Source: Thermococcus sp. EP1
Lineage (GTDB): Archaea; Methanobacteriota_B; Thermococci; Thermococcales; Thermococcaceae
Length of the DNA: 64,000 bases
Assembly: GCF_001317345.1 (NCBI RefSeq)
Contig: NZ_JXCG01000001.1
Span: forward strand, 186,001-250,000
Direction: 5' to 3'
How positions within the stretch are numbered: the stretch's first letter is position 1; each line of letters opens with the position of its first letter. Position numbers and translations under genes: made by a program. The notes under the pieces were generated by a model, which saw nothing but the letters and a program-made list of their open reading frames with translations, searched no databases and had not been told where the DNA came from. Of the stretch, positions 35,707-49,269 are shown piece by piece.

Positions 35707-35994
35707 ATGGGCTACACCATATATTATCATGTGAAGATCAAAGAGTACAAAAAAGCATGTACGTTTATTGAAAGAATCTGTAATGGCCTTAATTTAGATT
35801 GCAGATTTAACGAGAGGGAGATTATTATCAAACCATCCTCCAAAGAAGTAGAACCTCTCGTAATTAAGAATGGAAGGGGGTTTGTGAAAACTTACAAGAG
35901 AGAGCCATATACCTCTATTTACTTGCTAGTGCTCTTTTCACTTTCAGCTTTTGGTTCTGTTGAGGTTTCTGATGATGAAGGTTTCGCTTTATGA
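35707..35994 (+). CDS. conserved-looking small protein, unknown function
   Basis: 95 residues beginning MGYTIYYHVKIKEYKKACTF, with an alternating beta-alpha pattern (ERICNGLNLDCRFNEREI, IIKPSSKEVEPLVIK) and ending YTSIYLLVLFSLSAFGSVEV. It looks like a small ferredoxin-fold protein; I recall similar Thermococcales proteins of unknown role but cannot verify this. ATG 35707 has GTGGGTGG upstream and a TTTATAG box about 25 bases before. Its last 76 bases overlap the end of the convergent membrane-protein gene. Confidence 0.6.
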   Translation: MGYTIYYHVKIKEYKKACTFIERICNGLNLDCRFNEREIIIKPSSKEVEPLVIKNGRGFVKTYKREPYTSIYLLVLFSLSAFGSVEVSDDEGFAL

Positions 35995-36695
35995 ACTTCT
36001 AGCACCCTTTTTGGAATGGAGCTCCTGAATATTCTTTCTTCTATGAGAATCTTTACGACATCTCCCACTTCAACATCCTCAGTGTTATCCACCCAATATT
36101 TACCAGGCTTCACATTGGCTCGTATGTCATCGTGAACACTTACCAGCACAAGCTCTCCTTTGATGTCTTCTACTACTCCATACGTCCAATCTCTAGTGAA
36201 CTTCGATTTGTAGATGTATCTAAAGAGTAATACAATGACAAAAATAGCTATAAGGTAGGCGTAGAAGTAATAGACATTCTTTGCGAACCTTCTTATTAGG
36301 AGGTAGCCCAAGAAGGAAAGAAAACCTATTGCAGTAAGCCCATAATAGAAGAATCTGTAAGGCTCAACTTCAATGAAAAAGTCACGGTTTTTAATGAGTA
36401 TGTAGCGAAGATAGATAAAGTAGACAACCGAAATAATAGTCAGATATAGCTCATTCCCAAAAAGAACCACCAATAAGAGAGCAAATACGAGATAAAAGAT
36501 AAAGGAGAGCTGAAGGTTCAAACTTAAGAATTCATGAACTGTGAGCTCTCTTTTTATCAGCTTCTTAAGGAATTTGAACCTTGGAGGTTTTTGAGAGGGG
36601 GTAGGATTTACAATGTCTTTAATCCATTGGATTGATTTTCCAGTGAATGCTTCCGCTATTTCACCAATTTTATATAGGATTCCATCAAGATCCAT
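35919..36695 (-). CDS. DUF2101-like membrane protein, last gene of the CetZ-pilin operon
   Basis: 258 residues: a soluble N-terminal part (MDLDGILYKIGEIAEAFTG), about five membrane helices (for example LSFIFYLVFALLLVVLFG and YYFYAYLIAIFVIVLLFRYIY), then a C-terminal beta-barrel-like domain (YGVVEDIKGELVLVSVHDDI, VEVGDVVKILIEERIF) that resembles an OB or NfeD-type fold, and a Ser/Glu/Lys tail. I think it belongs to DUF2101, which has no known role. The ATG follows the stop of the large surface-protein gene by five bases with GGGGTGAT between them. Its tail overlaps a convergent gene by 76 bases. Confidence 0.65.
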   Translation of the reverse strand: MDLDGILYKIGEIAEAFTGKSIQWIKDIVNPTPSQKPPRFKFLKKLIKRELTVHEFLSLNLQLSFIFYLVFALLLVVLFGNELYLTIISVVYFIYLRYILIKNRDFFIEVEPYRFFYYGLTAIGFLSFLGYLLIRRFAKNVYYFYAYLIAIFVIVLLFRYIYKSKFTRDWTYGVVEDIKGELVLVSVHDDIRANVKPGKYWVDNTEDVEVGDVVKILIEERIFRSSIPKRVLEVHKAKPSSSETSTEPKAESEKSTSK

Positions 36696-36700
36696 GATTA

Positions 36701-39700
36701 TCACCCCGAAACTAGTAAATCTTGGGCTCCTCGTCCCCCAAATACTGCCGTTGCTATCTGATAGTCCAAATAGAAATTCTCATCTATGATCGGAGTAGCA
36801 ACGCCTCCATTAGAAGATATTCCAAGTACTTTATATACATCGGTTCTATCACTTCTGTAATTCTCATAATCCAAATATATGTAGTCTACAGCAGGTTGTT
36901 TTCTGACAAGGAAATCCAAATTTGGAGGTAGATCTTTTGGAAGGATAAAGCTAACAAGCCCAATTGGATACTTAGCCTCGCCATATACTGCTTCCTGCAT
37001 TTTCTCGGCAAGCGTCTCATAGTACACTCTATTCGTAGTAGATCCTCCTTCCAAGCGCTCAAGGAAGGATGGATAACCACTAACGCCGAAATACTTATAC
37101 TCTTGGATACAGTCGACATAAGGCTGGATATTATAAGCTCTTGCGTTTTTCCCACTTTGTACTGAGGCCTTGGACTCCGGAGATGAATACTGTGGTTGAG
37201 TGCTTACATAGGGATATCTTCCAGCTATAACCCAGTCGAAATAAGCATCGTTACCTACGATATTGTCAATAATTATTTGGACTTTCAATGGAAGTTGGGG
37301 CGAAGTTGCCACAGAAGCTGAAGTAATCCTAGAGATAGCATCCAAATCGGAAAATGTGGTAGAAATGCCTCCAGAATCATAATTGAAAATCACCTCGTAC
37401 CTGCGATATACTGTCAAATCACTGCTTGTGGATGAACTTGCCAATGAACTGGTCCAATTTTGGAGTATTGCTAGTAAATCACCATTATGATCAACATTTC
37501 CAGGATTATCATCGATATATTGCATTGGCGTACTTTGAGCTGAGGATATCTTTTGAACATTATAGTTGAGATTGTCTTCATCTAAATATTTCCTAAGGAA
37601 TATCCAGTCGTAATATACCCAATTATCATTTTTTTCATTGTCCAGTACAAGATATATTCTATACAAGGGATCCGTTACAGTACGATTGTCACCATTACTT
37701 CTACCGTTAGTGAAATCATAAAAGTAAACATTATTGTCAGCTGGAAATACTTGAACCTCATAAGTATGGAATTTATTATCCCCCCGTTCTTGAGAAATTT
37801 CATCTGGCCATCCATTATCCCACCACTCTTTGTGAATTGCCAAGTAGTTACCATATGAAGGAAACTCTCCCCATGCATCATCGGTAAATAGCAAAATATC
37901 ATTGTAATTTTGGGGGTCTCTAATACCAATTCCAGCATCCCAGTCTCCATAGTAACTGTAGGGTCTCATTCTAAATCTAATTGCATAGTCACCATAGAGG
38001 TTAATATTCGCATTATTCCTCAATGCGAGGAGGTTATTGCCATTTTTTATTATCAAGTTTCCATTAGTTTGATCGATATTATTCCTTCCACCTCTTACCA
38101 GATCCCATGTGTCCTGCCAATCACTATCCTCAAAATCGTCAAAAAACTCAAATACAGCCGTTCCATTTCCTCTTGTCAGAGTTCCAGTGTTGTACTCAAT
38201 GTAAAAAGTAGCGTGATAATAGTAGGTATTTCCTTGTTGGCGGTCATAGATAAAACTACTCTTTACCCATACTAGTGCCTTTCTCTCAGTGGTATTCCAA
38301 TATTCAATCCAAAATGGTACCTCATTCTCCTGATTATCATAGACCTTAATTTCTGCTGTATTATCTTGCGCATTAATATAATCGGGGAAGTCCGTTCCCT
38401 CAAGTTTAAGTGGAATCTGAATATTAGTATAATCAGGGATTTGTGCACCCGCATATGTCACATTAACCAGCAGTCTTTCTCCCCCTGAGACCCCAAACAC
38501 CACAGCTATTCCAGCGTCAAAGTCAGAAGTTCCTGAGGTACTTTTCATTTTATATCTTACAAATATCGGATAGTTAAATGACACCTTTGACTCCAAGACA
38601 CTTGCTTTTTCACCAGCGGATACAATTAGAGTCCCGTTCCCATCTACAGTAGCACTCCCCAATATGTCCCACTTGGTAGTATCTATTGACGTGCCCTCAA
38701 AATCATCGTAGAGGTCAAACAGCGTCTCTTTGTTATACCCATCGATGGCATAAGCAGGATCTGTGGTATAATATATGAAATACTGGTTTGTAGTCCCCGT
38801 TTTTATCCAGATCAATATCTCGTCGTTCCCCCACTTTTCTATCCAGAACGGAATTGGATTACACCCCACATCATACACCCTAATTGAAGCCAGAGTTCCA
38901 TTATGATACGCACCACTCAATACAGAAGCGGGAATCTCAAGTAAGGTTAAAGCATTAGGCTGAAAGTCTAAACTGGAGATATTCATTTCAACTCTATACT
39001 CATATGCAGAGGCATCTGGGCACCAAGCCCCACTTATATTTCCAAAGACCATTACAGCTATATCCTCATCCTCGAATATATCTAACGGAGAAACCTCAAT
39101 GTTATTAATGGTGGTGTTGAATATTATAGGCTTATTCACCGATACACCAGGCTCGTTCTTTACAATATACCCTAGAGCATCTTTTTCAGTATAGTAGTCC
39201 CCCACATAGATTTTATTTGAGGTAAGATTTTCAAGAGAGACTGAAACTTGTCCTGAGAACTTCTCTATATCCGAGGAACCGAATCCTTCTATTACCTTAA
39301 TAGGTTTCGCTAAATTTGGATACATAAATTTACACGAACTAACTATCCTAGAATACCTACCATAAGTCAAATATGAGAATAGGGGATCTTCCATTCCTTC
39401 TATAGAGATCACAGCGTATATGCTGCCATCTTGAGGAAGGGATGAATTGTAAACTACTTTACCTGAGATATCCTGAATCAATATGTTTGATATAGATGCA
39501 TTTACAACAACATGAAATGAATCCAAAGGTGCCACTGTTATTTGGATATTATTTAAAATCTCATCAACGGAGGGACTTAAAACATAGCCCTGCCTACTCA
39601 GCTCATCTCTCAAATTAATAATCCAATCTCGCAGAGTATTATTTCTCATGAAAAGGTTTACCCTACTATATCCACTAAGTTGCGGATACGTTCCTCTTAA

Positions 39701-39982
39701 AATCAATTCTTGTATAGCTTTACTCGCGTTATCTATTGGTGTGTGCTCATTGGTCACAAAATCAACCGTTAATGAGAGTGCACGCTTCGTTGATAACTCT
39801 AAAGCATTTTTAAAGTCTTCCTCTAAGTAAGAAGTCACTCTAAACGTTCTCTCTACTTGTACTCTCTCACTTTGAGATTGTACAATCCAGGAGGTGACGT
39901 CCTCATACGTTGCCAGAAGTAAGAGCATAGGAATAAGAAGAACCAAAACTAGTGAATTAAATATAAATCCTCTCCTTTTCAT
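36701..39982 (-). CDS. large pilin-like surface protein with two DUF2341-lectin modules
   Basis: 1,093 residues. The N-terminus MKRRGFIFNSLVLVLLIP is a short basic, glycine-ended leader plus hydrophobic helix as in archaeal pilin-like proteins, but it lacks the acidic residue after the cleavage site. A conserved-looking soluble part (about 30-200, DFKNALELSTKRALSL) is followed by two repeats of a DUF2341-like domain and a LamG/concanavalin-like domain: RVYDVGCNPIPFWIEKWG with LYDDFEGTSIDTTKWDILG (about 340-520), and KVYDNQENEVPFWIEYWN with FFDDFEDSDWQDTWDLVRG (about 520-800). These suggest carbohydrate binding. Start overlaps the upstream stop by one base (TAATG). Probably displayed on the cell surface (inference). 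Confidence 0.7.
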   Translation of the reverse strand: MKRRGFIFNSLVLVLLIPMLLLLATYEDVTSWIVQSQSERVQVERTFRVTSYLEEDFKNALELSTKRALSLTVDFVTNEHTPIDNASKAIQELILRGTYPQLSGYSRVNLFMRNNTLRDWIINLRDELSRQGYVLSPSVDEILNNIQITVAPLDSFHVVVNASISNILIQDISGKVVYNSSLPQDGSIYAVISIEGMEDPLFSYLTYGRYSRIVSSCKFMYPNLAKPIKVIEGFGSSDIEKFSGQVSVSLENLTSNKIYVGDYYTEKDALGYIVKNEPGVSVNKPIIFNTTINNIEVSPLDIFEDEDIAVMVFGNISGAWCPDASAYEYRVEMNISSLDFQPNALTLLEIPASVLSGAYHNGTLASIRVYDVGCNPIPFWIEKWGNDEILIWIKTGTTNQYFIYYTTDPAYAIDGYNKETLFDLYDDFEGTSIDTTKWDILGSATVDGNGTLIVSAGEKASVLESKVSFNYPIFVRYKMKSTSGTSDFDAGIAVVFGVSGGERLLVNVTYAGAQIPDYTNIQIPLKLEGTDFPDYINAQDNTAEIKVYDNQENEVPFWIEYWNTTERKALVWVKSSFIYDRQQGNTYYYHATFYIEYNTGTLTRGNGTAVFEFFDDFEDSDWQDTWDLVRGGRNNIDQTNGNLIIKNGNNLLALRNNANINLYGDYAIRFRMRPYSYYGDWDAGIGIRDPQNYNDILLFTDDAWGEFPSYGNYLAIHKEWWDNGWPDEISQERGDNKFHTYEVQVFPADNNVYFYDFTNGRSNGDNRTVTDPLYRIYLVLDNEKNDNWVYYDWIFLRKYLDEDNLNYNVQKISSAQSTPMQYIDDNPGNVDHNGDLLAILQNWTSSLASSSTSSDLTVYRRYEVIFNYDSGGISTTFSDLDAISRITSASVATSPQLPLKVQIIIDNIVGNDAYFDWVIAGRYPYVSTQPQYSSPESKASVQSGKNARAYNIQPYVDCIQEYKYFGVSGYPSFLERLEGGSTTNRVYYETLAEKMQEAVYGEAKYPIGLVSFILPKDLPPNLDFLVRKQPAVDYIYLDYENYRSDRTDVYKVLGISSNGGVATPIIDENFYLDYQIATAVFGGRGAQDLLVSG

Positions 39983-42234
39983 TAGTTCTCCCTCCAAACC
40001 CGCAAGGTTATCATTATTGGCTCGATAGATCTAGGGATACCTTTCAACGATGCAAAACTTATCTTTGTATCCTTAAGCCCAATTAATATTGGTGTATTCC
40101 ATCCATCTCCTCCCAGTTTCTGAAATAGTCTTATAATAGCATCATCAACAGCGTAGTCTTGAGGATTGAGCTGAGCAACTGTAAGGTTCATGTACCTTCC
40201 ATTTTCAATAGCCTTTATATCTCCAACAAATATACTTCCAAGACTTCCACTACCATATTTATACGTGAGATTGTATGCTTGGACTTCCGGATATCCCTGG
40301 AGTAAATATGGCTTTATGTCCCCATAGGGAGCATAGGCGTCCAACAAATATGTAAATTCCCCTGTAGTAAAATCCTGAGATATAACATAAGCATCTCCTG
40401 TTTCCACTTTGATATAGTTATCTCCAGGCAGAATAGCATTTGTTACAATATCCCCAGTATTATTTTTCATCGTATCAACTATCCCCCATCTGGTGAACGC
40501 CGGATCTGCAAATGGTTTATTTGGAGTACACTCAAGATTTCCGCTACTGTGACAGTACAATACAGTCCAGTTGTTCACGCCTGGGGATATAGAAATCTTC
40601 TGATCCTTGTCTGGATCATTAAGATAGTGCAACCTAACAATATGAAGTTTCGCCCAGATGGGAGTAACATTTAGGGGGAGAGTGTATTTCCAAGTGAGCA
40701 TTGTATAAAATGTTGACTGGTATGCAGTTCTTGCATACGTACTAGCTATAACATCGTCCTTTGTTATCTCCTCTGTTATGTCAATAGAATAGAGAGTTTT
40801 CGCAGTTTCTGGAGTATAAACGGCCCTAATATAGGACGTATCATAATTAAGTTTCAACTTATATGCATAGCTGGTAGAATCCCCATAAGGAGGTTCCTGA
40901 TAATCCATTCCAAAAGTTACTGCAAACCACAGGTATGTTTTTGATAAATTGCCAATATATATACCTCCATTTTGAAGTGCAGTAAAAATAGTCTGATTGT
41001 CCCAGACATAAGTATCATTTCCAATGTATGTTCCAACTCCTACTGAAATCTGTCTATCAAGATAAGTTAAGTAAAGTTTAGGATAGTTAGGCTCACTAAC
41101 TTTTGAAGCATTTATAATCTGAACTTGAACGTATAATGAGCTTAAGTTTCCTCCTATAAAAATAGCATTTTCCACTTGAAATGGATGCTTTGTCTCAATT
41201 TCATCAAAATGGAATGTTTGCGGATAATTGAAAGTGCTTAACTGGGATGTTTGGTAAGTTAGAGTGATAAAAACGTTAGGATGAACTCCCCCTGTGTAAG
41301 GAGAGCCCGCTGGATTATAAACCCATACTTCAAAGGTGTGCCTTCTTAAATCGTTGTGCCTCTTTAGAATCTCCAACATGTTACACGTCAGTGGATCATT
41401 AGAATTTGAATCTTCGAGAACTTCCCATATGCTGTATTCTACAAATGCATCATCTCTAAACTGGCCACACTCAACTGCCTCTCCATCTATAAACAAGCGC
41501 ATATATGAGGAAGGAGAAAACCATCTGGGCTGAGCGAACCACTTTATTTTCGTTATATTAACATCATACGGCAATTCATTCTCCTCTTCATTTGGTATTG
41601 TGTATCTTATTATCGTATAGTCCTGACTACTTGGAGCATACGCAAATGCTGAGCTTCCAAAGTAAGTATAAGTTGTTTCTTTGGCTCGCAGCTTTGTCAA
41701 ATACGCTCTTGCCACATATCCACGAGGAGTTTGATTGAAAATATATCCACTTAATACTAACGTGGCTGGAGAGACTTCTAGAGCTTTTGAATAATTGCCC
41801 TCTACATTTCTCAAATGGGGGCTAGTGTAGTTGTTTATCAAGAGTTCGTAGTTATATCCTTCCAAGGTGGAGTTTAAGAGATAACCTAATATTATCTCGG
41901 CTTTGCGCTTTAAGTTAAACTCCGGATAAATAGGATCAATAGTCCAATACGTAGCAACGATTTCAAGAGGACTCATATCCCGTGAAACAAATGTCGTATC
42001 TAGTATTTCGTCTCTTTCCCACTGGGTTAGTGTTTGTTGAGGAACCAGATCTTTTAATGACACTTCTCTCAAAATAGTTAAAACATCCTCAGCAATGTAT
42101 TTATTTTGTTCCCGCATGTAAGTGGAATATATCCCCACGTTATCGCTCACAACGATAACACTCGTCACAAATACCATTACTAATAACACTGATAAGAGAG
42201 CATCCAATGTAAAGATAAATCCCTTTCTCCTCAT
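39982..42234 (-). CDS. large pilin-like surface protein, unknown function
   Basis: 750 residues. N-terminus MRRKGFIFTLDALLSVLLVM: basic leader, Gly5 as likely cleavage site, Asp six residues later and a hydrophobic helix, the pattern of archaeal pilin-like membrane-anchored proteins. After YIAEDVLTILREVSL the rest is beta-rich, with many Asn-X-Ser/Thr sites, which suits an exported and glycosylated ectodomain. No recognised domain. The start overlaps the upstream stop by four bases (ATGA). Its N-terminus closely resembles that of the next gene upstream, suggesting duplication. Confidence 0.7.
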   Translation of the reverse strand: MRRKGFIFTLDALLSVLLVMVFVTSVIVVSDNVGIYSTYMREQNKYIAEDVLTILREVSLKDLVPQQTLTQWERDEILDTTFVSRDMSPLEIVATYWTIDPIYPEFNLKRKAEIILGYLLNSTLEGYNYELLINNYTSPHLRNVEGNYSKALEVSPATLVLSGYIFNQTPRGYVARAYLTKLRAKETTYTYFGSSAFAYAPSSQDYTIIRYTIPNEEENELPYDVNITKIKWFAQPRWFSPSSYMRLFIDGEAVECGQFRDDAFVEYSIWEVLEDSNSNDPLTCNMLEILKRHNDLRRHTFEVWVYNPAGSPYTGGVHPNVFITLTYQTSQLSTFNYPQTFHFDEIETKHPFQVENAIFIGGNLSSLYVQVQIINASKVSEPNYPKLYLTYLDRQISVGVGTYIGNDTYVWDNQTIFTALQNGGIYIGNLSKTYLWFAVTFGMDYQEPPYGDSTSYAYKLKLNYDTSYIRAVYTPETAKTLYSIDITEEITKDDVIASTYARTAYQSTFYTMLTWKYTLPLNVTPIWAKLHIVRLHYLNDPDKDQKISISPGVNNWTVLYCHSSGNLECTPNKPFADPAFTRWGIVDTMKNNTGDIVTNAILPGDNYIKVETGDAYVISQDFTTGEFTYLLDAYAPYGDIKPYLLQGYPEVQAYNLTYKYGSGSLGSIFVGDIKAIENGRYMNLTVAQLNPQDYAVDDAIIRLFQKLGGDGWNTPILIGLKDTKISFASLKGIPRSIEPIMITLRVWREN

Positions 42235-43673
42235 CTGTCATCCCACACCCAAAGTTTTATCCTTGCTTGTTCAAAAAGAGGGTCTAACAGAAGGTCTAAA
42301 TCTCCTTTATCCCTGAGAATGAGATCTGAAAAGTTGTTCTCATATATCCACAGCTCAACGATCTTCGACGTATACTCTGATGGCAATTCTTCAAATAAAT
42401 CGCCCCAAAGTATCTTTACACTGGTGGTATTTCCAGTGTAAAACTTTGTTATGTTCTGACCATTTTCCCTCCAGAATAACACAGCTTTGAGGGGGGAGGT
42501 TGGAGACGTTTTCTCTATAAAAAGACCTCTAACCTGAACATCATCTACAACAACGAATGTGGCATTTCCAGTGCCCGAAACTTGAAGCTCTAAATAGAAG
42601 TGAGCCGGAATATTTTCAACGAGTCTCCCAGAAACCAACACTTTTTTAGTAGTTCCAACTTTAATGGTTTTATTGTAAATCTCTTTTTTAACTACAAAGT
42701 CTCTTCTTTCGTATTGTATCCACGGTGAACGAACCTTTGAGGCATTTATCACATTTTCATCCGTGTATAGTGACCCATTAATTACAGCAAACATGTACGT
42801 AGGCTCCGTAAGGTTTGAAAAATGAGTAACACGGGAAGTTAAGTTCCAATTTCCATAGTCTACATAGTCCACTGAGATTTTCACGTTTCCTTGTCCCGCT
42901 ACCTTGAAGAAGTAAGGACAGCTTCCACCCCCATAGTTTATTTGAAATCCTTGAGATTGAGTTATAAGCACGTTTATTGTAATTATTGAACCTGCAGGGA
43001 TCAAATAAGGTCCTATTACCTCGCCTCTTATTCCAGTGATTGTTATATCCTCTGAAACTTTGAATTCAAGCACATCATTGTTTTCTAAATCCACATTGTT
43101 ACCACTTTTTAGAGAAGTACATATTTGCTCGTTTCTATATACCGATCCATTGTTTTTTGTTATCTCTATCCATTCAACTTGAAATATCCCACTAGGAGAA
43201 CTTCCATTTATATCTAGGTTCACACCCGGATTAGACTCAAATACTATGTTTGTCTCCCCACGTGGGAATCGTCCACTAGCATTGACGTCTCTTTTTGTTA
43301 TATAAACCTCGATTTCAAAATCGTGACCTCTACTTAGTTTCAAAAGATAGCTGTTTTGTATAAATGCACCATTTATAGAAGTGTTTAAAGCCTCTAATTT
43401 TTCATAATCTAAAGCAAATTGATAATCAGCATCTCTCAATCCCACTACTTTAACATTACTCACGTTCTCCTCCCAGTTCTCAGGAAAACCGGGATTTTTA
43501 GTTAAAACATCAAGCATGTTATTAGCAATGTTTGCTCTATCATACCAGTCCAAAAGGCCCGTTATCTCCGCCTTTATCATGTCATTGGTATTCATAACTA
43601 CCCCCACAACCATGACAACAATGACCAGTGAAAGTAAAGCATCTATTGAAAGTAATTGTCCCTTTCTTCTCAT
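42231..43673 (-). CDS. pilin-like surface protein, unknown function
   Basis: 480 residues. N-terminus MRRKGQLLSIDALLSLVIVV has Gly5-Gln6 as probable prepilin cleavage site. The segment YDRANIANNMLDVLTKNPGFPENWE is a pattern I recall from other archaeal pilin-like proteins. The remainder is beta-rich with many N-glycosylation sites; ends KLWVWDDR. The ATG lies within the stop region of the upstream gene with GGTGAGAGG in front. Probably membrane-anchored with an outside domain. Confidence 0.7.
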   Translation of the reverse strand: MRRKGQLLSIDALLSLVIVVMVVGVVMNTNDMIKAEITGLLDWYDRANIANNMLDVLTKNPGFPENWEENVSNVKVVGLRDADYQFALDYEKLEALNTSINGAFIQNSYLLKLSRGHDFEIEVYITKRDVNASGRFPRGETNIVFESNPGVNLDINGSSPSGIFQVEWIEITKNNGSVYRNEQICTSLKSGNNVDLENNDVLEFKVSEDITITGIRGEVIGPYLIPAGSIITINVLITQSQGFQINYGGGSCPYFFKVAGQGNVKISVDYVDYGNWNLTSRVTHFSNLTEPTYMFAVINGSLYTDENVINASKVRSPWIQYERRDFVVKKEIYNKTIKVGTTKKVLVSGRLVENIPAHFYLELQVSGTGNATFVVVDDVQVRGLFIEKTSPTSPLKAVLFWRENGQNITKFYTGNTTSVKILWGDLFEELPSEYTSKIVELWIYENNFSDLILRDKGDLDLLLDPLFEQARIKLWVWDDR

Positions 43674-44149
43674 CCTCTCACCACATCAATTTCTATGTTT
43701 ACTCTCTTTCCACCATACTTCAAAACCCCAGTATTATTTGTAAAACGATAGTTTTCCACAAGATCTTTTTCAAGAAACTCCGTGAGGTTTGAGACAATGC
43801 TAGCATTAAGGTTCTGGATAGATAAATACGGAGTTGAAATTAGTATTGTTATGTTGACCTCAGTTATGCTCTCCTCTGAGGTGAAGTTTTTAATAGATAA
43901 GTGTGGATTTTCCGTAATCTGTGATAATAATGGATTTAGTGTACTCTTATAGAGCTCATCGTCAGTCATAACCCCTGTATTCAGATAGTCAATTGCCTTT
44001 GAAAGGGAACTCCTCACATAGCTCACTATCATTATATTCGTATTATTATCCGTGTAAGAGGGGACAATCATAATTAACCCGATGAAAAGTATGCCTAGTA
44101 TGAATATCATCTCAATGGCCGTTTGTCCTTTACTCCGTGATATTCGCAT
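43670..44149 (-). CDS. type IV pilin-like protein
   Basis: 159 residues. Leader MRISRSKG, then QTAIEMIFILGILFIGLIMIV: cleavage after Gly with Gln at +1 and Glu at +5, the classic archaeal class III signal recognised by prepilin peptidase. The C-terminal part (about 120 residues) is polar and beta-rich. ATG 44149 chosen for GGTGAG seven bases upstream; it overlaps the previous gene by 20 bases. Likely a subunit or minor pilin of a surface filament. Confidence 0.75.
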   Translation of the reverse strand: MRISRSKGQTAIEMIFILGILFIGLIMIVPSYTDNNTNIMIVSYVRSSLSKAIDYLNTGVMTDDELYKSTLNPLLSQITENPHLSIKNFTSEESITEVNITILISTPYLSIQNLNASIVSNLTEFLEKDLVENYRFTNNTGVLKYGGKRVNIEIDVVRG

Positions 44150-44552
44150 AAAGCATCTCACCTATCCTTACAGTAGTTATCCAAAAACTCTCTCCACTGT
44201 TAACCACTATTGAAGCATTAGTCATAGGAACCGTGGAGTTCTTCACTATCCAGTAACTCTTTCCATCCACTGTCACGTTGACTATTATCTTGTTCGTCGC
44301 TCCATTAAAAGTAATGCGAAAAGTTGCTCCACTTATTTGAGGAGTTTCCTCCTTCAGTCTATATCCTTCCCCTACGGCATAAACTTTGGCCGTATGGTCA
44401 ACTATTTCAGCTGAAAAAACTCTCACCTTTGCCATTACATCAAAACTCTCTGCATTGGCCATCTCATTATTGGCTAGATAAATCAAGTTTAACATCGTAA
44501 GAGTAACAAGTACAAAAGCGAAAAGCAGATCCAAGCTCAACTGTCCTCTCAT
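44130..44552 (-). CDS. type IV pilin-like protein
   Basis: 140 residues. Very short leader MRG, then QLSLDLLFAFVLVTLTMLNLIYLA, with Gln at +1 and Asp at +5. A short helical stretch is followed by a small beta domain (GATFRITFNGATNKIIVNVTVDGKSYW). ATG 44552 lies one base after the upstream stop with GGTGG in front. Same signal type as its two neighbours, so they are probably exported by one machinery. Confidence 0.75.
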   Translation of the reverse strand: MRGQLSLDLLFAFVLVTLTMLNLIYLANNEMANAESFDVMAKVRVFSAEIVDHTAKVYAVGEGYRLKEETPQISGATFRITFNGATNKIIVNVTVDGKSYWIVKNSTVPMTNASIVVNSGESFWITTVRIGEMLYANITE

Positions 44553-44553
44553 A

Positions 44554-45258
44554 CTAACCACCGACGTTAAGGTTTATCCTAAGCTCTTGGGCAGTAGAGT
44601 TGAAAATCCAGCTCTCATTTCTATCCGGATTCCATTCAACAACTATCTTCAACGTGGTAGGACTAACTTCTGGGAAAAGCAGTATTCCGTTATAGGGGGT
44701 TATATTGAGGTTTAAGACAGAGGGGGAATACGTAGTCCCATTATACTCCACACCAATTCCCACCACACTATAAATACTAGCATTGCTAAGGTCTCTCCGG
44801 TAGAGGGAGTCGGCAAGGAAGAAGTTCTTTTTCAATGCATCTGTTTCACTTTGAATGGGTACCATATTCGCCGAGAGTGTATCTGTACCCGTGTCATAAG
44901 AAGTAAAGACAATTGTCTCATTAAACTCGAGTATTGTTACATAGGTCCCATTTTGATAACCCACCACAATGTAGGGCTTGTTATTCATTGCAAAGGCCTT
45001 CTTAAGAAAATACTCGTCATTTAGATACCTAAAAGTGAAGTATTCAGTGGTTTTTGCACCTGGCCCTTGTGCATAAACCTGAGATATCGCATTGGAAACC
45101 GTGTTTGCAAACAACTTCGCCTCTTCACTAACCTGAATTCTCAACATATCTGCAGAATTCTCGCTGGAGAAGGTAATATTTCTAATCGAGAAAGTCAGGA
45201 GTACGAGGAACAATATAAATATGAATAGGAACTCCAGCGATATCTGTCCTTTTTTCAT
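44554..45258 (-). CDS. type IV pilin-like protein
   Basis: 234 residues. Leader MKKG, then QISLEFLFIFILFLVLLTFSI, with Gln at +1 and Glu at +5: a textbook archaeal pilin signal. After the N-terminal helix come VSEEAKLFANTVSNAISQVYAQGPG and a beta-rich C-terminal half ending TAQELRINLNVGG. ATG 45258 follows GGTGAGAGAG. It is first of the pilin genes, 40 bases behind the membrane-protein gene; an internal promoter is possible. Confidence 0.78.
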   Translation of the reverse strand: MKKGQISLEFLFIFILFLVLLTFSIRNITFSSENSADMLRIQVSEEAKLFANTVSNAISQVYAQGPGAKTTEYFTFRYLNDEYFLKKAFAMNNKPYIVVGYQNGTYVTILEFNETIVFTSYDTGTDTLSANMVPIQSETDALKKNFFLADSLYRRDLSNASIYSVVGIGVEYNGTTYSPSVLNLNITPYNGILLFPEVSPTTLKIVVEWNPDRNESWIFNSTAQELRINLNVGG

Positions 45259-45298
45259 CTCTCTCACCATACCAATAAATAACACGTCAACAAATTAT

Positions 45299-45916
45299 TT
45301 AACGCTTTCCATCCGTTTCATCTTTCTTTACCATTGCAAAAACATTGGTGCCAATTTTTTTCGTTAAAACTCCGAAATAATCATGATTAAATATTTTGAA
45401 TTTGTACCTTTCGGGGTCAAGCTCATATTTCTTTAGGAGTTCTTTAAGTTCTTCAATAAAAAGCTGGGTAAGCTGGTAGTAACCGAGATCAAGGGCGTTC
45501 TTTTTGTAGTCCACCAGAAATATCACCATTGGGATGAGGCTCAAAGGAATTAAAACCCATAATTCGCCATAGATAATCGTGGCTGCTATTCCTGCTGCCA
45601 GAAAGATGCCTAAAAGCACTAACCCAAGTTTAAATACGTTTTTAACCTTTTTCATACCTTTTACTTTGTTTTCCCATATTGTGAGGAGAGCAGGATTGTA
45701 GAAATCAAAAGCAGTGTGTCTTTTTCCTTTGGCCACTCTCTGTCTCATCAAATCATCCCAGTCATCTTCATAATGAATTATCTCTCCTCTGTTTTTTGCT
45801 CTTTCAGCATCTATAGAAGATATTATTCTAATCATGTCCTCTGCGCTTTCGTGGGCTATGTGAGAGTATACTTCCTTTTCCTTCAGCTCCAACGCAACAT
45901 CAATCGAGTCTTTCAT
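45299..45916 (-). CDS. two-helix membrane protein between CetZ and the pilins
   Basis: 205 residues. A charged N-terminal half (MKDSIDVALELKEKEVYSHIAHESAEDMIRIISS, then FDFYNPALLTIWENKVKGMKKVK), two adjoining membrane helices (LGLVLLGIFLAAGIAATIIYG and LWVLIPLSLIPMVIFLV), and a cytoplasmic C-terminal domain (TQLFIEELKELLKKYELDPERYKFKI). No family recognised. The ATG overlaps the end of cetZ by 17 bases with GGGTGGGG in front, so the two are translated together. A link between the CetZ cytoskeleton and the membrane or pilins is a reasonable guess. Confidence 0.7.
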   Translation of the reverse strand: MKDSIDVALELKEKEVYSHIAHESAEDMIRIISSIDAERAKNRGEIIHYEDDWDDLMRQRVAKGKRHTAFDFYNPALLTIWENKVKGMKKVKNVFKLGLVLLGIFLAAGIAATIIYGELWVLIPLSLIPMVIFLVDYKKNALDLGYYQLTQLFIEELKELLKKYELDPERYKFKIFNHDYFGVLTKKIGTNVFAMVKKDETDGKR

Positions 45917-47003
45917 TAACCCCACCCGGATAAATGTCATCAAAATCTGGTAGACCCGTCAAAAGTTCTTTTTTCTTTGTTTCGGCCTCTTCTTTCGCTT
46001 TTATGAATGACTGAGCATATTGTTTAGCGATTACCACTATGTCTTCAATGCTTTTACTCTCATAAATCCCTGTTAGGAGGGTGACAACTTCTATCTCCTT
46101 TTCCCTTGGATCTGGATAAAAGCCGCGGAAAATCTGCTTTCCTTTAATCTTTTTGGTTAGGTAACTGAGAGCCTCAAATATATCCCTGGCTTTTAAAAGC
46201 TCAGGCGGCCCATGGATTGCCACTAACCCATAAAGGGCAGACTCTATATTTGCTTCAAGATAAAGCCCCTCGTTCTCAAATGACTTTAAGATAAGCCGGG
46301 AGAGATTCCTAACTTTATTTGCTTCAGCTTTTGCATAACCTACAGTAGCGAAGCTCCCAAAAGCATTAAGCACGAACTTCAGATCGCTGGAATCGAGTGT
46401 TTGCTCTCCGGGAATGTCTATTAGTGCCAGAAGGGATGCTATACGCTCAACTATCGTATGATTTATTTTCTCATAGGCCCGTGTTATGTCCTCGCCACTT
46501 TCCTTAAGTTTATTGTTATCTATGGCTATTATTGAATCAGCTACTTTGGAAAGCTTGTCTATTGTTATTGCAGCGTTTATCGTTGGTCTTATCCCCTCTT
46601 CTTTTAACGGAAGTGCTCCAATTGCGACGACGAGTGAATCTGGGTATTCTTCTTTTAGGGCCTCAGCTAAAACTGGAGCTCCTCCAGCCCCTGTTCCACC
46701 ACCAAATCCAAAAGTGAGGAAAAAGATATCAACGTCGCTGTAACCTACCATGGAGTTTATCTTCTTCATTATCATTGAAAGATCTCTTTTCATTGCCTCT
46801 CTTCCGAGTACTGGGTTCGCATTTACTCCCTTTCCTCCAGTTAGACTCTCGCCTATGAGTATACGCCGTTCCCTAGGAATATGCTTCAAGTAGTCAAGGT
46901 CACTCTTTGAGGTGTTTATTGCCAATGCCTCAAAGTCCACTAAGGCGAACAAGTCCGCTATCTTTGTCCCACACTGACCTACTCCAATGATTAAAGCCCT
47001 CAA
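45900..47003 (-). CDS. cetZ: tubulin-like GTPase CetZ
   Basis: 367 residues. N-terminal RALIIGVGQCGTKIADLFA (tubulin/FtsZ T1 region), a T3 region with GGKGVNANPVLGREAM, the T4 GTP signature FLTFGFGGGTGAGGAP near residue 95 and a helix with IDNNKLKESGEDITRAYEKIN. The pattern fits the CetZ family, distinct from FtsZ1/FtsZ2; CetZ controls cell shape and motility in haloarchaea. A TTG at 47003 is the preferred start: GGGGTGA lies seven bases upstream and longer forms overlap the previous gene. The stop of that gene is inside this binding site. Its place in a pilin-like operon suggests a role in surface assembly or cell shape. Confidence 0.85.
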   Translation of the reverse strand: MRALIIGVGQCGTKIADLFALVDFEALAINTSKSDLDYLKHIPRERRILIGESLTGGKGVNANPVLGREAMKRDLSMIMKKINSMVGYSDVDIFFLTFGFGGGTGAGGAPVLAEALKEEYPDSLVVAIGALPLKEEGIRPTINAAITIDKLSKVADSIIAIDNNKLKESGEDITRAYEKINHTIVERIASLLALIDIPGEQTLDSSDLKFVLNAFGSFATVGYAKAEANKVRNLSRLILKSFENEGLYLEANIESALYGLVAIHGPPELLKARDIFEALSYLTKKIKGKQIFRGFYPDPREKEIEVVTLLTGIYESKSIEDIVVIAKQYAQSFIKAKEEAETKKKELLTGLPDFDDIYPGGVNERLD

Positions 47004-47010
47004 AGTAATT

Positions 47011-49269
47011 TCACCCCACAAGCTCAATGTTCAATTCATCAAACTCCACTACCCCGTTATGGTTCTTGTCCTCATGGGTTATTACACAGGCGGCTCCATT
47101 GAGGTACTTGATTATCGTGGAACTGAAGAACGTGCTCACAATATCCTCTGCACCTTTGGATGAGAGTACAAACAGTAGATATCCCTCGCTGGTTTTTCCT
47201 GGAATTAAAATTACCGTGTCATTTATTGGATAGCTCTTATCATCAAGGTAGACATACATATCATCGCTCTTTACCTTGATGTACGGGTTGTATTGGAGTA
47301 TATTAAATGTGCTGAAGTCTGAGACTACGATGTAGTTGGAATCTCCAAATCCTTCAAAGGGCTTAATCTCAAAGCTCTTTTCAAATACTTCACTAAGGGC
47401 TTCTCCAAGTGAAACTGCAGTGGAATTATAATCAGAAGTGTAAAGGATCGTAAAGTTCTTCTCGGGAATTTGCTTGAGGACTTGATATAGACTGAGAGGC
47501 TTAATTACTACCTCTCCCATTTCAGAGAAAAAGAGTACTGCAAGGGCGGATTCTGTTAAGGTTGTTCCCCATAAACCATCACTGCGGTGGTCCAAAAGCC
47601 AGTTAAATGTCTCAGCACGGTAGTCTATGCCAAAGTCATATAGGACTTTAGTGGCTCGTATTGTGAGTTCAACTGATGGGGCTCCTAAATACATCAGGAT
47701 ATCTCTAATATAAATCTCCTTAACAACAGGCCACCCATCATCTTCGATTTTCTGCTCCATGAGCCATGTTAAGTGCCTTTCAACCTCTTCTTTAGTGACC
47801 AGTGGGGTGAGAGCCTCAAGAACTTCTAAAGTTGTGGGAACTGTGGGCATGATATAACGGACCCTAAATGGAACGGCAATCTGTATGCGAAGGCCCCATC
47901 CATCTGTTGGTAGTGAGAGAAGCCACTCTTTTGCTTTTACTATGTCCTCATCACTTGGGTCAACTCCCAATGCTAGGAGAGCCTTTATAGCAAGGGCCGT
48001 GTCGTAGGGTTGTGGCCCAAGTATCGTCTTCCACTTTCCATCCTCACTCAAACTCTTTATAAAGGAGATATGGGTTTGTTTCTCGGTTTCATTAAGCATG
48101 TTAAACTCTAGAAGCGTGAGGAGGTTGTAAATGTAAGCGGAGTTTAATCGTCCTTCTTTAGAAACTTTTTCCATATTCTTAGGGAGTCTGCTTTCAACCC
48201 ATTCTAGGCCTTTCTCAATGACTTCATCTTTAAAGTAGCACCTCTTCAATGCCTTTAAAACGTAATAAGTGGTTCTATCATCAGAGCTATAGCCCGCTCT
48301 GTATCCCCATCCTCCATCTGGATTTTGGACTTTTTCAAGGGCAGAACAAGAGTCTTCTATTGAAATGATGCCCCCTACTCCCCCGAGAGCATTGGCCGTC
48401 GCAAAACTCATGACTGCAAAGGCTGAAGCTGTGAATACCTCTCTGTTTGTCCACTCCTCTGGAACGTTAGCCCAATAAACCAAGGTTTCATTGCTCTCTG
48501 CTAGGTCTTCTAACCTGCTGAGGAGTTTGGCAACTTCAAAAGTCAATCCTTCATGAGTGGTGAGCACATAGGTAAGCAGGGCTCTCTCATCTATGGTAAT
48601 AGCGTCAGAGTTTACGAGCTCCCATGCTTTTTCAATGAGGGATTCGGGTATTTGATAACCAACACTCTTATAGGCAAGGATCTTTAGTCCAACGGCCTTT
48701 GCTTCACTTATTTCCATGCTCTCGGCCGATTCCAAGTATGCTATTGCTCCCTCTACATATCTGCTCTTTTCCGTATATCCATTCTCACCCAACGCCCAAA
48801 CTGCCATAAGGGTTGGATAGAACTCTGGCAGTGTGTTTGGTATGTACCCCCATCCATTCATGGTGTAGGACTTTACTAGAAAACTCAGCCCTTTCCTAAG
48901 GGCACTTGAGATATCATAATAGGACTCTCCAGTAGAAGCATAAAAGTCTGCTGCCCGTTTTAACGCTATAACTGCATAAGAAGTGTCCACAACATTACTC
49001 ACACTTCCCTCGTAATATCCCCATCCTCCATCCTCATTTTGTCTCTTCAATAGCTCATCCACAAAACTCGCGATATTTTCTTTGGTAAGATTCTCAGCAA
49101 TAGAATAGCTTGAGAGTAAGGCCATTAAGGATAAGCTTATCTCTTGAGTACCATCCATGTAATCCTCGCCCTCAATTAGAAACCTCGTGGAAGCGTCTAA
49201 AATGGGGAGTGCTCCAGCATAAGGAATCACTATTAGCAGGATTAAAATTAGCGAAAATATTCTTTTCAT
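47011..49269 (-). CDS. secreted alpha/alpha-toroid (prenyltransferase-like) repeat protein
   Basis: 752 residues. Signal peptide MKRIFSLILILLIVIPYAGA, then repeated helical units with the QxxDGGWG pattern of terpenoid-cyclase/prenyltransferase toroids (RQNEDGGWGYYEG, NPDGGWGYRAGYSSDDRTTYYVLKAL, DGWGLRI, DDGWPVVKEIY). The last 150 residues are a different domain (DSNYIVVSDFSTFNILQYNP, resembling archaeal S-layer C-terminal parts) ending in an EF-hand-like calcium loop DKNHNGVVEFDE. No catalytic acidic DXDD motif, so probably a binding or scaffold protein outside the cell. First gene of the CetZ-pilin operon; ATG 49269 follows AGGTGCCGGG. Confidence 0.75.
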   Translation of the reverse strand: MKRIFSLILILLIVIPYAGALPILDASTRFLIEGEDYMDGTQEISLSLMALLSSYSIAENLTKENIASFVDELLKRQNEDGGWGYYEGSVSNVVDTSYAVIALKRAADFYASTGESYYDISSALRKGLSFLVKSYTMNGWGYIPNTLPEFYPTLMAVWALGENGYTEKSRYVEGAIAYLESAESMEISEAKAVGLKILAYKSVGYQIPESLIEKAWELVNSDAITIDERALLTYVLTTHEGLTFEVAKLLSRLEDLAESNETLVYWANVPEEWTNREVFTASAFAVMSFATANALGGVGGIISIEDSCSALEKVQNPDGGWGYRAGYSSDDRTTYYVLKALKRCYFKDEVIEKGLEWVESRLPKNMEKVSKEGRLNSAYIYNLLTLLEFNMLNETEKQTHISFIKSLSEDGKWKTILGPQPYDTALAIKALLALGVDPSDEDIVKAKEWLLSLPTDGWGLRIQIAVPFRVRYIMPTVPTTLEVLEALTPLVTKEEVERHLTWLMEQKIEDDGWPVVKEIYIRDILMYLGAPSVELTIRATKVLYDFGIDYRAETFNWLLDHRSDGLWGTTLTESALAVLFFSEMGEVVIKPLSLYQVLKQIPEKNFTILYTSDYNSTAVSLGEALSEVFEKSFEIKPFEGFGDSNYIVVSDFSTFNILQYNPYIKVKSDDMYVYLDDKSYPINDTVILIPGKTSEGYLLFVLSSKGAEDIVSTFFSSTIIKYLNGAACVITHEDKNHNGVVEFDELNIELVG

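Follow-up and report, generated by a model that had tools for sequence, protein, structure and literature searches.

We consider it fairly probable that a ten-gene operon of Thermococcus sp. EP1, in which the tubulin-family gene cetZ is joined to class III prepilin genes, encodes the minor pilins and tip adhesins of the type IV pilus (T4P) that Thermococcales build (Makarova clade 1), together with a dedicated cytoskeletal base. Three of its genes, g2, g3 and g4, are replaced as discrete alleles between species and even between genera. The cetZ/toroid/pilin locus itself is already published (Makarova 2016, PMC4858521; Brown 2023, PMC9856176). A preliminary description of this DNA had read the operon as an undescribed surface assembly system linking cetZ to pilins; the assembly reading and the cetZ–pilin link are upheld by an invariant gene order in 61 loci and by conserved gene coupling, whereas the two publications remove the word undescribed.

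Organization and conservation of the operon

The window analysed here is a 64,000-nucleotide stretch (contig C1:186001-250000) of a 1.82-Mb genome that is 96% complete and whose close relatives among the genomes compared are Thermococcus and other Thermococcales. Open reading frames and family profiles define ten overlapping or closely packed genes on the minus strand at 35919-49269, transcribed in the order toroid g10, CetZ g9, g8, prepilins g7, g6 and g5, large surface proteins g4, g3 and g2, and DUF2101 protein g1 (Table 1). The genes and their tight spacing agree with the preliminary description, which had counted nine although its own listed proteins sum to ten. Starts of the toroid, CetZ, g8 and g7 genes were picked by likely ribosome-binding sites. 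A toroid–CetZ fusion was considered because open frames at cetZ measure 1067-1228 aa in some of the genomes; it was rejected, as the loci examined have separate reading frames and an intervening stop. A scan for bacterial-type promoters, with a bacterial consensus unsuited to archaea, gave matches at the level of shuffled sequence.

Table 1. Features of the CetZ–pilin operon (positions within the window).
Feature	Position	Strand	Description
g10	47011..49269	-	secreted toroid (squalene-hopene-cyclase-like, E 2e-13), 752 aa, ATG 49269
g9 CetZ	45900..47003	-	tubulin-family GTPase, 367 aa, TTG 47003; Tubulin E 6e-33, CetZ_C E 2e-17
g8	45299..45916	-	two-helix membrane protein, 205 aa, ATG 45916; start overlaps cetZ end
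g7	44554..45258	-	class III prepilin KKG/QISLEF, ATG 45258; class III signal profile E 3e-7
g6	44130..44552	-	class III prepilin, MRG/QLSLDL
g5	43670..44149	-	class III prepilin, SKG/QTAIEM
g4	42231..43673	-	large prepilin-like protein, 480 aa; N-terminal helix and beta-rich head; KG/QLLSID, acid at +6
g3	39982..42234	-	large surface protein, 750 aa; N-terminus related to g4
g2	36701..39997	-	large surface protein, DUF2341 domains (E 6e-25); candidate tip adhesin
g1	35919..36704	-	DUF2101 membrane protein (E 2e-74); C-terminal region conserved
Allele-exchange segment	36704..43403	-	about codon 90 of g4 to g1 start; block or piecemeal replacement between close relatives

Genes were assigned in the window and in 60 further Thermococcaceae loci. 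Conservation of gene order in Thermococcales had been set beforehand as a check, and the order upstream gene-g10-g9-g8-g7-g6-g5-g4-g3-g2-g1 is constant in essentially all 61 loci. Adjoining genes overlap or lie at most 20 bp apart in nearly all of them, with the exception of the upstream-gene/g10 and g8/g7 junctions. The g8–g7 gap (median 36 bp) could house a separate transcription start; a single transcript is presumed. Departures from the common arrangement are few: g5 has no BLAST-detectable match in two loci, and the operon of L045 runs past its contig end. The toroid gene is gone only in L099 (G041), a complete genome in which about 150 bp separate the end of the upstream gene from cetZ and the rest of the operon is intact; the toroid is thus dispensable in at least one complete genome. 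Detachment of g1 was observed only in L093 (G029), where the DUF2101 gene lies at C1:1756298 and cetZ at C1:1791712, about 35 kb away and on the opposite strand.

A CetZ orthologue (79-100% identity) is found in all genomes of the family Thermococcaceae but five, which are drafts of 210-420 contigs. In the other families of the phylum the CetZ search returned FtsZ-level matches alone and no CetZ orthologue. DUF2101 shows the same family restriction and was not found in Methanocaldococcus jannaschii, the control genome of the DUF2101 search; a CetZ of Methanococci is not listed in the available sections of Brown 2023 (PMC9856176).

Class III prepilins and large surface proteins

The products of g5, g6 and g7 each carry Gly or Ala at -1, Gln at +1 and an acidic residue at +5, followed by a hydrophobic helix. 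Gln at +1 and Glu or Asp at +5 are present in 61/61 (g7), 61/61 (g6) and 59/59 (g5) loci, and position -1 is Gly or Ala (Ser in two rows). These class III sites are conserved and are not chance matches. In g4, the G/A-Q pair occurs in 60 of 61 rows and the acid is at +6 rather than +5 in every row. The three proteins with class III signals named in the preliminary description are g5–g7; with g4, four proteins have a prepilin-like start. No canonical class III (G/A-Q) site is found in g3 or g2; g3 has G-F with Asp at +6, and g2 starts alike (R-x-G/A-F..N) but has no acidic residue there. Related N-termini had also been claimed for the three large proteins. The g4 profile does match the N-terminus of the neighbouring g3 (E down to 9.5e-6), while the kinship of g2 is weaker.

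The length of g2 ranges from 359 to 1217 aa across loci. DUF2341, a domain proposed to mark PilY-like tip adhesins (Makarova 2016, PMC4858521), occurs in the g2 of the window; of six further g2 alleles that were scanned, three have it and three shorter ones lack it. A fold search with g4 found nothing credible, giving beta-rich chance matches with TM-scores about 0.1. One g4 allele (L086:9909-12410, minus strand, 834 aa) scores over the cut-off for Bactofilin (PF04519, E 8e-8) and also matches a repeat family, which suggests the insertion of a domain resembling a beta-helix.

CetZ, g8 and a candidate link to the membrane

The g9 product contains a Tubulin/FtsZ GTPase domain (PF00091, 115 bits) and a CetZ-type C-terminal domain (PF21011, 63 bits), both over cut-off, which identifies it as a CetZ. 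It falls below the FtsZ equivalog cut-off (134.6 of 295.2 bits), and its nearest solved structures are 4b46, 4b45 and 3zid. Two further FtsZ-family genes lie elsewhere in the same genome. The CetZ C-terminal peptide GLPDF[D/E]D[I/L/V]Y is present in 61/61 loci. FtsZ binds its membrane partners via a C-terminal peptide, and the CetZ tail is similarly positioned.

The membrane protein g8 has a conserved N-terminal domain ahead of its membrane hairpin, as judged from the alignment and from an AlphaFold model (pLDDT 79) that displays a helical hairpin; a fold search with g8 retrieved nothing credible (best E 0.76). The preliminary description had pointed to coupled translation of cetZ and the membrane-protein gene, and the two genes indeed overlap or abut in all 61 loci. 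The CetZ tail peptide and the g8 N-terminal domain are natural candidates for the cytoskeleton–membrane link. From gene position and the tail motif we infer a direct connection between cytoskeleton and surface, in which CetZ and the two-helix g8 probably form the positioning base of the pilus. Haloferax CetZ1 is implicated in archaellum positioning (PMC11621097), a case that lends plausibility by analogy to a positioning role for CetZ here.

Pilus machinery is encoded in trans

The operon lacks a pilus ATPase, a platform protein and a prepilin peptidase, in line with the preliminary description. The absence of motor genes does not make it a motor-less system, because the missing functions are encoded elsewhere. 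A T4P ATPase (592 aa), two T2SSF/TadC proteins, a DUF515 protein and a 304-aa protein form one cluster at C1 340-346 kb, the only non-archaellar T4P motor of the genome. Stand-alone class III pilins map to C1 354-358 kb. At C3 175.6-177 kb, the gene for an EppA-type peptidase adjoins that for a class III pilin of 65 aa. The genome thus has the gene content (ATPase, two TadC proteins and EppA-type peptidase) expected of a clade 1 archaeal T4P.

The T4P ATPase occurs in all 94 Thermococcaceae-family genomes searched (partial in a few drafts). In the 46 genomes with both genes on one contig, its distance from cetZ is never below 31 kb, with a median of 252 kb (coordinates rounded to about 1 kb). 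As the motor is never near the operon, their pairing rests on the motor's status as sole candidate; as both are universal, co-occurrence provides no test of it. Seven genomes, four of them single-contig, have neither archaellins nor a FlaI-type ATPase and yet retain the T4P ATPase and the operon (in one of the seven, draft G071, only cetZ and a g1 fragment are seen). With the archaellum thereby rejected, the T4P motor is left as the candidate partner; that the operon serves the archaellum, as the Haloferax CetZ1 case (PMC11621097) might suggest, is hardly credible given these seven genomes.

In many genomes the match to the T4P ATPase is interrupted near residue 430 within one long frame of about 1000-1200 aa (e.g. 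G097:C1:483774-487118), which looks like an intein; the window genome's own copy (L039:5749-7527) is uninterrupted. A class III prepilin encoded near the other stand-alone pilins carries a fused Lamin Tail Domain (PF00932, E 5e-20; L103:4438-4995, minus strand).

Allele exchange of the exposed genes

Gene by gene comparison was made for 47 close pairs of loci, those with a CetZ identity of 95% or more. The share of these pairs with less than 60% identity is 51% for g4, 57% for g3, 44% for g2 and 32% for the toroid, and no pair drops that low for CetZ, g8 or the upstream gene. CetZ, g8 and the flanks track phylogeny, while g2–g4 similarity shows no correlation with the distance between species (rho about 0). 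Against core distance, the correlation coefficient is 0.07 for g4, 0.03 for g3, -0.05 for g2 and 0.41 for the toroid, against 0.48-0.64 for g5–g7, 0.64 for g1, 0.75 for g8 and 0.95 for the upstream gene, which, like CetZ, is itself part of the core distance measure. Between the window and G105, CetZ is 99% and the toroid 97% identical, yet g2–g4 are only 42-44% identical; DNA similarity is lost about 270-280 bp into g4 and returns at g1. Consistently, g4 residues 1-90 have a median identity of 85% in close pairs, residues 181-270 drop to 40%, and g3 residues 181-600 to 32-40%. The g2 and g3 genes co-vary strongly in these pairs (rho 0.88). The toroid is swapped independently of g2–g4, and its exchange stays within genera.

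On FastTree trees, genus labels change 5 times, the minimum, for CetZ, g8, the toroid and the upstream gene, and 9, 12 and 14 times for g4, g2 and g3, respectively. In AU tests the g2, g3 and g4 data reject the tested species groupings with p from 1e-25 to 1e-104, values that express the size of the conflict and are no blind test, the groups having been picked after the identities were known. Alleles of g3 from different genera are up to 76% identical, and those of sister species about 40%.

Rapid change is common in surface proteins, and ordinary fast evolution in place might in principle account for the divergence of g2–g4. We regard it as highly improbable: besides the cross-genus g3 identities, the sharp DNA breakpoints and the rejected species groups, alleles shared by relatives have dN of 0.006-0.043 with dS of 0.18-0.62 (window/L044, L064/L059 and L059/L061), near the values of neighbouring genes. 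The shared g2–g4 alleles evolve slowly under purifying selection, and fast point evolution was rejected as the source of variability on their low dN. With shared alleles under such selection, the pattern resembles a serotype-like exchange of tips while the base, linked to tubulin, stays constant. Silent cassettes of g4 were not found: apart from the N-terminus of the adjacent g3, its profile detects a single copy in each genome. For g4, the one profile used for this purpose, the genome thus lacks silent donors of the kind known from phase-variable, Neisseria-like pilin systems, and exchange is more likely to occur between strains than from silent copies.

Discussion

We propose a working scheme in which EppA would cleave g4–g7, g5–g7 together with g4 would begin the filament, g3 and g2 would cap it as adhesins, and the stand-alone small pilins would make up its shaft. 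The trans-encoded ATPase and the two TadC proteins would power assembly. The invariant C-terminal peptide of CetZ and the conserved part of g8 on the cytoplasmic side may bring CetZ to the membrane, a contact that would position or stabilise the base of the pilus. Recombination in the conserved flanks could carry tip alleles of g2–g4 from strain to strain, altering what the pilus binds or what binds the pilus (surfaces, partner cells or viruses).

A different view of the same genes is that the class III proteins form a separate, motor-less coat or anchor, such as a bindosome-like or S-layer-anchoring complex in the membrane that is organised by CetZ, with no pilus. The beta-rich character of the large exposed proteins suits such a structure, as does the position of the motor genes, neither in nor near the operon (31 kb at the closest). 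We judge it improbable because this genome and all its relatives have the full T4P motor set and an EppA-type peptidase, because class III processing is the path taken by pilins, and because DUF2341 is tied to pilus adhesins (PMC4858521). A stronger challenge accepts the pilins as part of the T4P and treats CetZ and g8 as mere operon neighbours that act in cell shape or division. CetZ does control cell shape elsewhere, and other cetZ genes sit in non-pilin neighbourhoods (PMC9856176). We hold this reading to be rather unlikely in view of the universal junction of cetZ with g8, the unbroken linkage of both to the pilins despite wholesale replacement of the downstream alleles, and an independent CetZ2–pilus linkage in haloarchaea (PMC9856176).

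The proposed pilus operon with its cytoskeletal base agrees with earlier accounts. PMC4858521, citing Szabo 2007, assigns the cetZ/squalene-cyclase/pilin loci of Thermococci to clade 1 archaeal T4P, and PMC9856176 reports that every analysed Thermococcales cetZ region is pilin-associated and suggests a T4P scaffold role for CetZ. These loci share with ours CetZ (arCOG02202), the toroid (arCOG03396), several class III pilins, DUF2341 proteins and the organism family; allele exchange, found here, goes unmentioned in the available sections of the two papers. PMC9856176 also has cetZ adjoining pilBC regulons, in contrast to the distances measured here. In haloarchaea, cetZ2 lies beside the pilB2/C2 T4P regulon (PMC9856176) and is likewise linked to pilins, but the haloarchaeal region also includes the ATPase and platform genes, which here are in trans; the likeness is drawn from gene linkage.

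Other systems resemble the exchange of tips. Myxococcus Tad (Kil) pili (PMC12075869) also combine variable minor-pilin tip complexes with a constant pilus; they are bacterial and use several tips per genome together, whereas the Thermococcaceae have one set per genome, replaced by recombination, and the likeness is one of working principle. VARTIG modules of Thermococcales (PMC8416519) likewise vary surface or secreted proteins by recombination between Thermococcales, though with variable gene content and Ig domains, while in the cetZ operon the order is fixed and alleles alone change. The UV-inducible (Ups) pili of Sulfolobales (PMC7064770) are archaeal T4P whose variable regions give species-specific recognition; their variation lies in a major pilin, and here it lies in large accessory proteins.

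What is new relative to the literature we found is that g2–g4, and separately the toroid, are swapped as discrete alleles between species; our search turned up no report of allele exchange at a cetZ–pilin locus, though one may exist elsewhere. More tentatively, a tubulin-family filament could be a dedicated part of the T4P, with serotype-like tips, old conserved alleles moving across species and genera by flank recombination, that set specificity for partner, surface or virus. The cetZ–pilin link is published, but our search met no experimental work on it in Thermococcales, a group with established genetic tools. Exact candidates for the connection from tubulin to membrane come from the operon, namely the CetZ tail GLPDFDD and the g8 N-terminal domain. 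The pattern of allele exchange suggests a testable reason for the variability of the exposed proteins, which may be recognition or virus escape at the pilus tip of a hyperthermophile.
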